In this document: positions 14,180 to 16,941 of the stretch, in pieces
Numbering within the stretch: position 1 is the first letter of the stretch
How the letters are laid out: every line of letters begins with the position of its first letter
DNA from: ANME-2 cluster archaeon
GTDB lineage: Archaea; Halobacteriota; Methanosarcinia; Methanosarcinales; Methanocomedenaceae
DNA: 35,099 nt
Direction: 5' to 3'
NCBI GenBank assembly: GCA_019429385.1
Contig: JAHYIS010000029.1
Location: forward strand, 1 to 35,099
The notes under the pieces: generated by a model
Told to the model about the DNA's origin: nothing
Seen by the model: the letters and a program-made list of their open reading frames with translations, nothing else
Database searches by the model: none
Position numbers and translations under genes: made by a program

Positions 14180-15205
14180 TCAATTCTTGTATTTCACTTC
14201 ATCCAGCAAGAACGGGGGGCTGAAAACGCCGTTCTCGGTAATGATAGCTGTTATATTCCCCATGGGAGTAGCATCAAAAGCCGGATTGTACACCTTCACA
14301 TCCAGAGGTGCTATCTGCTTGCCACCCATGAACCGCAGTTCATCGCTATCGCGCAGTTCTATCTCTACCTGGTCCTCCATGTTCTCAAAATCAAACGTGG
14401 ATACAGGTGCAGCTACATAAAAGGGAATCTCATGTTCATTTGCCATAACGCTATGGGTATAGGTGCCAATCTTGTTGAACACCGCATCCTGTGTAATGCG
14501 GTCAGCACCGACAATAACACTGTCCACCATCCCCTCCCGCATCACGTGTCCACTCATGCTGTCGGTAATAAGGGTAACAGGGATCTTATCTTCCATAAGT
14601 TCCCAGGCTGTTATCCTGCCGCCCTGGTTCAATGGACGGGTCTCGCAGGCAATGACGTTTATTTCTTTTCCCATCCCGATGGCGCTGCGTATCACACCCA
14701 GAGCCGTCCCCCAGTCCACACATGCCATCCGGCCCGCATTACAGTGAGTGAGCACGGTATCACCGTCATTCAGGAGCGCAGCACCATGAGCTCCCAGGCG
14801 TTTGTTCAACTCAACATCCTCATCGGCTATGTCCTTAGCCTCCTGCAGTAGTATCCTGCGCATACCATCAGTATCATAGGCATCCCGGGCAGCATCCAGC
14901 ACCCTGTCCACGCCCCATGCCAGGTTCACTGCAGTGGGCCTGGTGGATTTAATGACGTCGCCTACACTGCGCAGGTCATCAAGGAGTGTTTCCATAGATT
15001 CTGCGCTCCTTTGCATGGCTGCAAGCGCAATACCAAACCCTCCGGCTGCACCCAGTGCAGGTGCACCTCGCACGCGCAGTGACTGAATCGATTCACACAA
15101 CGACCCGACATTATCACATTCTATCACCTTGAATTCTCCCGGTAACAGGGTCTGGTCGACCATAATTATGGTCGCATTCTCATCGTTCCAGTCAATGGTC
15201 CTCAT
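14180..15205 (-). CDS. mtnA: MtnA-type sugar-phosphate isomerase (methylthioribose-1-P isomerase-like)
   Basis: 341 residues of the eIF2B-related isomerase family. It converts an aldose-1-phosphate, classically 5-methylthioribose-1-phosphate, to the ketose. The conserved RVRGAPALGAAGGFG is at 44-58, the catalytic Cys is C155 in THCNAG, and the catalytic Asp is D235 in GADRI. ACETRPLNQGGRITAWEL at 186-203 is also typical. It begins 18 bases after the amidohydrolase stop with an AAGGAG ribosome-binding site, so the two are co-transcribed. In archaea close relatives include ribose-1,5-bisphosphate isomerase. The MtnA-like motifs favour MtnA, but the substrate may be a deoxyribose analogue. Confidence 0.87.
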   Translation of the reverse strand: MRTIDWNDENATIIMVDQTLLPGEFKVIECDNVGSLCESIQSLRVRGAPALGAAGGFGIALAAMQRSAESMETLLDDLRSVGDVIKSTRPTAVNLAWGVDRVLDAARDAYDTDGMRRILLQEAKDIADEDVELNKRLGAHGAALLNDGDTVLTHCNAGRMACVDWGTALGVIRSAIGMGKEINVIACETRPLNQGGRITAWELMEDKIPVTLITDSMSGHVMREGMVDSVIVGADRITQDAVFNKIGTYTHSVMANEHEIPFYVAAPVSTFDFENMEDQVEIELRDSDELRFMGGKQIAPLDVKVYNPAFDATPMGNITAIITENGVFSPPFLLDEVKYKN

Positions 15206-15223
15206 GGTAACTCCTTATCAAAA

Positions 15224-16039
15224 CTAACTGATTTCAAAATTAAATAATCGTGCTGCATTGGTACCCAGTATCATTTCCAACTGTTGTTCATCAAATCCAA
15301 GGTTTTTCATATTATTGACTTCCTGTCCCTGGTCCCTGAATGGATAATCGGTACCGAACATCACCTTATCAAAACCGTGGGCTTCTATCATCTCTTGCAT
15401 GCGCTTCAACGTGATATGTTCATGGCCGGGCACGGGATATACATAAGCAGTGTCAAGATAGATATTCTTGCCAAGCAAATGACACTCCACATCATCCCAG
15501 CACCGGTGGCCGCCCAGGTGGGCGGCTATGATCTTCAATTCAGGGAAGGAATCCAGTACATTGGATAAACGAATAGGGGTAGTATGTACCTCTTTGACAG
15601 GTATGACCTCGTCGCCAGCATGGAACACCAGTACCATATCGTCACCCATTGACTCATATATTTGAAACATCCGTTCCTCGTCAGGAAGGAAATGCTGGAA
15701 CTCGCTATGCAGTTTTATACCCTTAAGACCAATATCCCGCATACGCTGTACCTCGGCCTCAATGTCCGGATAATCCGGGTGCATGGCCCCAAGTCCTATG
15801 AAGCGTGAATCGGTACTTGCGACCTCTGCCACCCAGTTATTGATGCTCTCCACCTGCGCAGGTATGGTAGCTACCGAAAGTATGACCGAGGCATCAATGT
15901 TGCCAGCCTGCATGCTGGCACCTATACCGGATACGGTAGCTTCACCACAGGCATTGACACCATATTGCTGCTCAAGACCAGTGACTGCTTTTGAAGCGAT
16001 CTTATCAGGAAATATGTGCGCATGAGAGTCTATTATCAT
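15224..16039 (-). CDS. TIM-barrel metal-dependent amidohydrolase
   Basis: 271 residues from the ATG at 16037-16039, giving MIIDSHAHIFPD, the usual start of this family (COG2159-like). An upstream in-frame ATG at 16088-16090 is possible but would put the promoter-like element at 16062-16079 inside the gene. Metal ligands are visible as DSHAH (4-8), VFHAGDE, AAHLGGHR and GTDYP. Members hydrolyse or decarboxylate small ring or amide substrates, and the substrate here is unknown. It is followed after 18 bases by the MtnA-type isomerase, which suggests a shared salvage pathway. That link is inference. Confidence 0.82.
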   Translation of the reverse strand: MIIDSHAHIFPDKIASKAVTGLEQQYGVNACGEATVSGIGASMQAGNIDASVILSVATIPAQVESINNWVAEVASTDSRFIGLGAMHPDYPDIEAEVQRMRDIGLKGIKLHSEFQHFLPDEERMFQIYESMGDDMVLVFHAGDEVIPVKEVHTTPIRLSNVLDSFPELKIIAAHLGGHRCWDDVECHLLGKNIYLDTAYVYPVPGHEHITLKRMQEMIEAHGFDKVMFGTDYPFRDQGQEVNNMKNLGFDEQQLEMILGTNAARLFNFEIS

Positions 16040-16061
16040 ATAGATGTTATGATAACCCACG

Positions 16062-16079
16062 TATTGATAAAATTGTTGA
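16062..16079 (-). promoter_or_regulatory. Promoter-like element of the amidohydrolase gene
   Basis: On the minus strand it reads TCAACAATTTTATCAATA. The identical 18 bases occur at 16924-16941, and both copies sit exactly 23 bases before an ATG (16039 and 16901). The TTTTATC core lies about 27 bases before the ATG, where an archaeal TATA box would be for a leaderless transcript. Confidence 0.6.
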
Positions 16080-16094
16080 CATTTCTGCATCTGA

Positions 16095-16901
16095 TCAGCG
16101 GGGGTTAAAATCAGGAATATCCAGGTTTATATCATCTTCAATGTCAACACATGATATGGGACATGCCAATTCCTTCCATTTCTTCATAAACATGAACAAC
16201 GTCAAACCGGTCAACATTAGTGCTGACAACAAGAATAACCACGATACAACTGCGGGCAAAACCATACCATACAGGTGTACAGCTACGGAAATGAAAAAAG
16301 CGGTGACAGGTAAAGTTAACTGCCTGATAAATGTACGAAATGTCCTGAACCGTAATACAGCGGTCAAATCCCTGCTGACATTGTTGTCGTTAAGAAACCG
16401 GGTCATTTCATCAGGTAACTCATCTCCCAGACAAAGAGCGGTCTTGAAAAGGGTGTAAGGGGTAAGGGAATACTTGCACATACATGCCAGTTTGCCATCT
16501 TCCTCCTGCAGTCTTGCTATGTCTTTCTCCATGACCTCTATTAGCTCGTCCTTGAAGCTCTTGATATCCTCATAGGCTGTGCAAACCAGAAGGGATAGCA
16601 GGAGTAAAGGTTCACTATGCCCTGCCTGTACTGCGTTGCGGCGAATTTGTTCTATCCTGTACAGGGGTATATCCATGTCCATAAGGTCACCTGTCAGGTT
16701 GGTCGCCTTGATGGTTACGGCTGTCTGTCCCGTATTTTCGCGGAGTTGCCGGATGAAGATGGAACGTAATATGGTAAACCTGCGGGCTGCGCAGTTATTT
16801 TTGAAATAGATGACGATGAATGTAATCTTGAGGAAAAGGATGAGGGTAAAAGTCAAAATGAGAGTTGGGGTTGTTATAAAAGGTGAAGGGTGCAATATCA
16901 T
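16095..16901 (-). CDS. Membrane protein of unknown function
   Basis: 268 residues. A first hydrophobic helix spans about 11-33. A cytoplasmic helical region follows (about 40-195), including an Arg/Glu-rich stretch with RIEQIRRNAVQAGHSEPLLLL and a Cys pair CMCKYS. Two further helices form a hairpin (about 200-220 and 224-247). The C-terminus (CPISCVDIEDDINLDIPDF) is acidic with two Cys. No family was recognised. It starts at an ATG with a promoter-like 18-bp element 23 bases upstream and ends 55 bases before the amidohydrolase ATG, whose own copy of the element lies just beyond its stop. It is not obviously linked in function to its neighbours. Confidence 0.75.
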   Translation of the reverse strand: MILHPSPFITTPTLILTFTLILFLKITFIVIYFKNNCAARRFTILRSIFIRQLRENTGQTAVTIKATNLTGDLMDMDIPLYRIEQIRRNAVQAGHSEPLLLLSLLVCTAYEDIKSFKDELIEVMEKDIARLQEEDGKLACMCKYSLTPYTLFKTALCLGDELPDEMTRFLNDNNVSRDLTAVLRFRTFRTFIRQLTLPVTAFFISVAVHLYGMVLPAVVSWLFLLSALMLTGLTLFMFMKKWKELACPISCVDIEDDINLDIPDFNPR

Positions 16902-16923
16902 TATATGATTTATTGTATCCGGA

Positions 16924-16941
16924 TATTGATAAAATTGTTGA
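16924..16941 (-). promoter_or_regulatory. Promoter-like element of the membrane-protein gene
   Basis: Second identical copy of the 18-bp element at 16062-16079, again 23 bases before the gene's ATG. The flanking bases differ between the copies, so only this block is conserved. Confidence 0.6.

Follow-up and report, generated by a model that had tools for sequence, protein, structure and literature searches.

An identical 18-base element before two consecutive genes of an ANME-2 cluster archaeon, a probable core promoter of leaderless transcripts

Two consecutive genes of an ANME-2 cluster archaeon, encoding a membrane protein and an amidohydrolase, are preceded by the same 18 bases at the same distance from their start codons. 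Is this element a shared promoter, or is it the site of a regulator that controls the membrane-protein gene and the amidohydrolase-mtnA pair together? A preliminary description of the locus had left both possibilities standing; the analysis reported here favors a promoter of predicted leaderless transcripts and speaks against a regulator controlling both units. The element is most likely an ordinary kind of promoter element in an unusually uniform form. Specifically, it is proposed, with a probability of about three in four, to provide two leaderless transcripts with their BRE/TATA core promoter and to belong to a sub-type CAACNATTTTATC that also stands before alaX and an isopropylmalate/homocitrate-synthase-like gene.

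The element and the genes it precedes

The window, i.e., the whole stretch of 35,099 nucleotides that was analysed, contains on its minus strand a gene for a membrane protein of 268 aa (16095..16901) that is hydrophobic around residues 6-34 and 195-240. The protein has no match in Pfam or NCBIfam, and its gene is present in 14 of the 60 genomes searched (own genome included), all within the same family. Next on this strand are the gene for an amidohydrolase of 271 aa (15224..16039; Amidohydro_2, PF04909) and mtnA (14180..15205), which encodes S-methyl-5-thioribose-1-phosphate isomerase of 341 aa (NF004700, 609.6 bits, cut-off 528). These two genes are probably co-transcribed, because the gap between them is 18 bases. 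The start codons of the membrane-protein and amidohydrolase genes are backed by the relatives, in which both proteins have the same first residue. In genus g2 (L037, G008:C28, from about 14508 onward), the amidohydrolase gene, flanked by the membrane-protein gene and mtnA, appears to lack its middle, the N-terminal stretch joining the C-terminal part directly.

Scanning of the window located the exact sequence TCAACAATTTTATCAATA at 16924..16941 (element 1, a predicted BRE plus TATA-like core promoter) and at 16062..16079 (element 2), both on the minus strand and both at -40 to -23 from an ATG (16901 and 16039, respectively), in agreement with the preliminary description. Element 2 lies entirely within the short gap 3' of the membrane-protein gene. 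The distance of 23 bp to the ATG that had been given is correct when the last base of the element is counted as 23 positions upstream of the A, with 22 bases intervening. These 22-base spacers (16902..16923 and 16040..16061, minus strand) are unlike each other, as had also been observed (CGTGGGTTATCATAACATCTAT vs TCCGGATACAATAAATCATATA). The two copies of the element are 862 bases apart, and their identity hardly reaches past the 18 bases into the unshared flanks. Neither spacer is rich in G at -12 to -8, where the sampled genome has its G-rich peak, and no Shine-Dalgarno site is present at either start. The second gene of the amidohydrolase-mtnA unit, mtnA, has the Shine-Dalgarno site AAGGAG (15211..15216, minus strand), which would be expected if leaderless starts are confined to first genes. 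Within the amidohydrolase spacer, GTTATCATAAC forms an inverted repeat (16046-16056, minus strand) that is imperfect in most congeners.

The element is scarce. Three matches to the 18-mer with up to three mismatches were found in the window, vs 0.13 expected from shuffles. The whole genome (G000; 2,400,975 bases in 70 contigs) contains only two exact copies of TCAACAATTTTATCAATA, both at this gene pair, which rules out a genome-wide repeat or the end of a mobile element. Its 21 further matches, at 2-3 mismatches, bring the total to 23, vs 6 for a reversed-pattern control; the majority of them are inside open reading frames, and none is followed by an ATG at a spacing of 22 bases. In the identical stretches of contigs C24 and C38, an ATG does follow after 23 bases, yet both stretches are contained in a 432-aa frame on the opposite strand. 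Identical stretches on separate contigs of this genome (C24 near 19178 and C38 near 19284; C2 near 146038 and C27 near 84) are a sign of assembly overlaps or leftover repeats.

Conservation of the element and recurrence of its core

Relatives, labelled as ANME-2 cluster or Methanosarcinales archaea, were found by protein, and the genus set comprises eight genomes, own genome included. The gene pair is present in seven of the eight, the exception being G001 (81% complete) with neither gene, and in all seven the amidohydrolase gene is directly 3' of the membrane-protein gene and the element precedes both. Element and ATG are 22 bases apart, or 21 in four membrane-gene copies (G002, G003, G005, and G007). 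Thirteen of the 14 sites are within two mismatches of the 18-mer and belong to 22 genus-wide matches, while the membrane copy of G003 has three mismatches. Before the amidohydrolase gene, 16 of the 18 element columns are invariant among the seven genomes and 14 of the 22 spacer columns; only 12 of the 77 fourfold sites of the gene itself are so (P 6e-9 against the element, columns taken as independent). The corresponding figures for the membrane copy are 13/18 in the element, 9/22 in the spacer, and 13/66 further upstream, the difference between element and upstream columns having a P of 5e-5 with columns again taken as independent. That the element is far more conserved than fourfold codon sites argues that it is functional and not a product of chance; together with the shuffle and control counts, the genus-wide conservation rules out a chance origin.

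A 13-base core, CAACAATTTTATC, recurs beyond this gene pair. The own genome has 12 sites with at most one mismatch, vs 6 for the reversed control, and four of them are 24-26 bases before an ATG-started gene (P 0.0065). The four genes are those for the membrane protein and the amidohydrolase, alaX (identified by NF040865), and the isopropylmalate/homocitrate-synthase-like gene, whose best NCBIfam score is under its cut-off. Across the eight genus genomes, this arrangement is seen for 24 of 78 core sites at the same threshold, and no other gene family is involved (gene pair, 13; alaX, 6; synthase-like gene, 5); the P of 1.6e-10 holds if the sites are independent, which orthologous sites are not. 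The sub-type sequence CAACNATTTTATC precedes alaX and the synthase-like gene by 24-25 bases, genus-wide and partly family-wide (L106, L109, and orthologues). Outside the genus, the same distance is kept by the exact 13-mer at alaX of G010 and by CAACTATTTTATC at the synthase-like gene of G009 and G011. The core is absent at alaX and the synthase-like gene in G008 and in the genomes of other families looked at, and at the amidohydrolases of G010, G011, and G012. A genome search for the 13-mer placed 24 bases before an ATG, with up to three mismatches, returned 71 matches vs 39 for the reversed control.

Promoter register in the genome sample

The promoter sample drew on the window and 40 stretches of 20 kb each, 835 kb in total or roughly one third of the genome. 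Of the 690 genes predicted there by a crude open-frame caller, 423 have free sequence upstream; a Shine-Dalgarno-like word is present in 207 of these and absent from 216. An unseeded expectation-maximisation search from random starts, applied to the 177 ATG-started genes without such a word, yielded cgAAAactTTAT starting at -40/-39 at width 12; at width 16 it gave aATacaAAAAnTTTAT, again in this register. The motif of genes without Shine-Dalgarno sites approximates cgAAAnnTTTAT and is in the element's register; CAACAATTTTAT of the element, at -39, falls on the BRE/TATA register of the genome's leaderless-type promoters. With motifs trained on one half of the genes and applied to the remaining half, the best site was at -40 to -37 in 19 of 175 genes vs 8.3 expected (P 7e-4); the two half-trained motifs disagree in detail, and the held-out support is real but modest. 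The word TTTAT separates the two classes of genes weakly, being at -32 to -29 in 14 of 80 occurrences without vs 7 of 85 with a Shine-Dalgarno site (P 0.06). Among genes without Shine-Dalgarno sites, the promoter score of the membrane-protein gene is at the 81st percentile and that of the amidohydrolase gene at the 54th, a moderate fit to the average promoter of the genome. In other genera (g2-g4), TTTATGTA- or TTTATATA-type boxes were recognized by eye about 20-24 bases before the start codon of the membrane-protein orthologues, and no clear TATA box is at that place in the amidohydrolase orthologues of G010, G011, and G012.

From the directly observed identity, register, and conservation of the element, the absence of Shine-Dalgarno sites, and the recurrence before two other genes, together with the TATA-type boxes at the membrane-protein gene in other genera, we infer a shared promoter of the leaderless type, as the preliminary description had suggested. 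CAACAA would serve as the TFB recognition element and TTTTATCA as the TATA-like box, together forming the core promoter of two separate transcripts, one from the membrane-protein gene and the other from the amidohydrolase-mtnA pair. Binding of TBP and TFB would place RNA polymerase about 25 bases downstream, and both mRNAs would start at or a few bases from their own ATG, without leaders. The promoter sub-type CAACNATTTTATC would be common to alaX and the isopropylmalate/homocitrate-synthase-like gene, and its uniform sequence would be kept by selection on promoter strength or on the use of a TATA variant.

A core promoter by itself fails to predict 18 identical bases: 0.005 such pairs per genome are expected from the core-promoter motif of the sample under a position-independent model. 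Something more must therefore hold the sequence, which may be selection on strength, preference of one TBP, a regulator overlapping the core promoter, or a shared origin.

Comparable promoters have been described in other archaea. According to the accessible text on Haloferax volcanii, 72% of the protein-coding transcripts are leaderless, and the promoters have a BRE of CGAAA and short TATA motifs TTWT (PMC4983044). The element shares with them, as far as that text goes, a T-rich TATA-like box that is preceded by an A-rich block and set at a constant distance from the ATG, with no Shine-Dalgarno site (PMC4983044). It differs in its box (TTTTATCA), in the block before the box (CAACAA, not CGAAA), and in that two genes share all 18 bases, the starts here being predicted from sequence (PMC4983044). 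In the methanogen Methanolobus psychrophilus, the consulted part of a dRNA-seq study reports leaderless transcripts as a minority of 16%, most transcripts having leaders, and locates BRE and TATA boxes some 19-22 nt upstream of the start (PMC5378194). Upstream boxes of the BRE/TATA type, predicted ones in the case of the present locus, are a common feature of that organism and this locus, and a shared sub-type like the one here is not described in that part of the study (PMC5378194). A literature search on ANME-2 with promoter and leaderless combined, within the library searched, found a paper on another subject and no mapped promoters of ANME-2 archaea. A conserved element at a fixed distance would provide a testable rule for some of the transcript starts in ANME-2 and aid the assignment of start codons.

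Alternative readings and the copy before mcrB

The 18-mer could instead be the binding site, overlapping the core promoter, of a dedicated regulator by which the membrane protein and amidohydrolase-mtnA, perhaps with alaX and the synthase-like gene, are switched together. The 18/18 identity in excess of what the core-promoter motif predicts, the genus-wide conservation of both copies, and the restriction of exact copies to two in the genome would suit such a site. However, the bases common to both copies fall on the BRE-TATA footprint, in the register that was obtained unseeded, no inverted repeat was seen in the 18-mer on inspection by eye, and the flanks are unshared between the copies. Neither a repeat structure visible by eye nor a footprint distinct from the core promoter, as an operator should have, was found. 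Furthermore, the 18-mer marks this pair only, and its core is also before alaX and the synthase-like gene, two unrelated genes without an evident common pathway; a regulator of the membrane-protein and amidohydrolase genes is therefore weakened and a promoter sub-type favored. We consider a dedicated regulator unlikely.

Another possibility is that the sub-type is read by one of the genome's TBP paralogues and not by the main one. Three TBPs are present in Methanosarcina acetivorans. The genome studied here contains three TBP genes (G000:C3:39275-39799, C4:21815-22336, and C8:35802-36323). An alternative TFB was ruled out, since only one TFB gene was found (C20:15839-16387). In a set of genes the box ends in TATC and not in TATA, an ending shared at alaX and the synthase-like gene by other genera of the family, but plain tuning of promoter strength could give the same pattern, and reading by a TBP paralogue is judged quite improbable. 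In a literature search on the extra TBPs of Methanosarcina, no paper was found that met all terms jointly. If a particular TBP does read the CAACNATTTTATC set, a concrete handle on the role of the extra TBPs in the ANME-2 group would be gained. More speculatively, and rather doubtful in our estimate, CAACNATTTTATC could be a second promoter code in ANME-2-type archaea that, via one of the three TBPs or a dedicated factor, links alaX (tRNA editing), the citrate/isopropylmalate-synthase-like enzyme, amidohydrolase-mtnA (methionine salvage), and the membrane protein in a small leaderless regulon.

Local copying could also have produced one promoter from the other, or the two could be kept alike by gene conversion. 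Their proximity (862 bases) and their mutual identity in G000 and G006 are compatible with this, as is G008, in which the amidohydrolase remnant adjoins the membrane-protein gene without such a gap. On the other hand, the identity hardly extends beyond the 18 bases, and in G002, G003, and G005 the membrane-protein gene has TCAA[C/T]AT and the amidohydrolase copies retain TCAACAAT. Variants thus track the site and not the species, so each copy appears to be maintained separately. With no sign of homogenisation, ongoing gene conversion is unsupported; an old single copying event of the promoter may have occurred. As a whole, an origin of the identity in copying or conversion is considered very improbable. 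The weakest alternative, a 5' leader site for a protein or small RNA acting before the start codon, would explain a shared sequence at a fixed start-codon distance, but it requires a further promoter upstream, which in the case of the amidohydrolase would have to be located within or ahead of the membrane-protein gene, and sits poorly with the TATA-type boxes at similar distance before the membrane-protein gene in other genera, so that it can hardly be upheld.

Among the congeners, G003 alone has an exact third copy of the 18-mer (G003:C83:6510-6527; L100 1501-1518), 262 bases before mcrB. At this place the other congeners have a CTCAACAATTTCAACA-like sequence, similar yet different, or an unrelated one, and a different block, CGATTAATCCGTAACCTTTAAGTAGG, is conserved closer to mcrB instead; the third copy is probably incidental. 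Some 200-230 bases upstream of mcrB, genera g1-g3 share an almost unchanged block like CGATTAATCCGTAACCTTTAAGTAGGTTTG (L253-L260), which could represent the promoter of mcr, the transcript then having a long leader.
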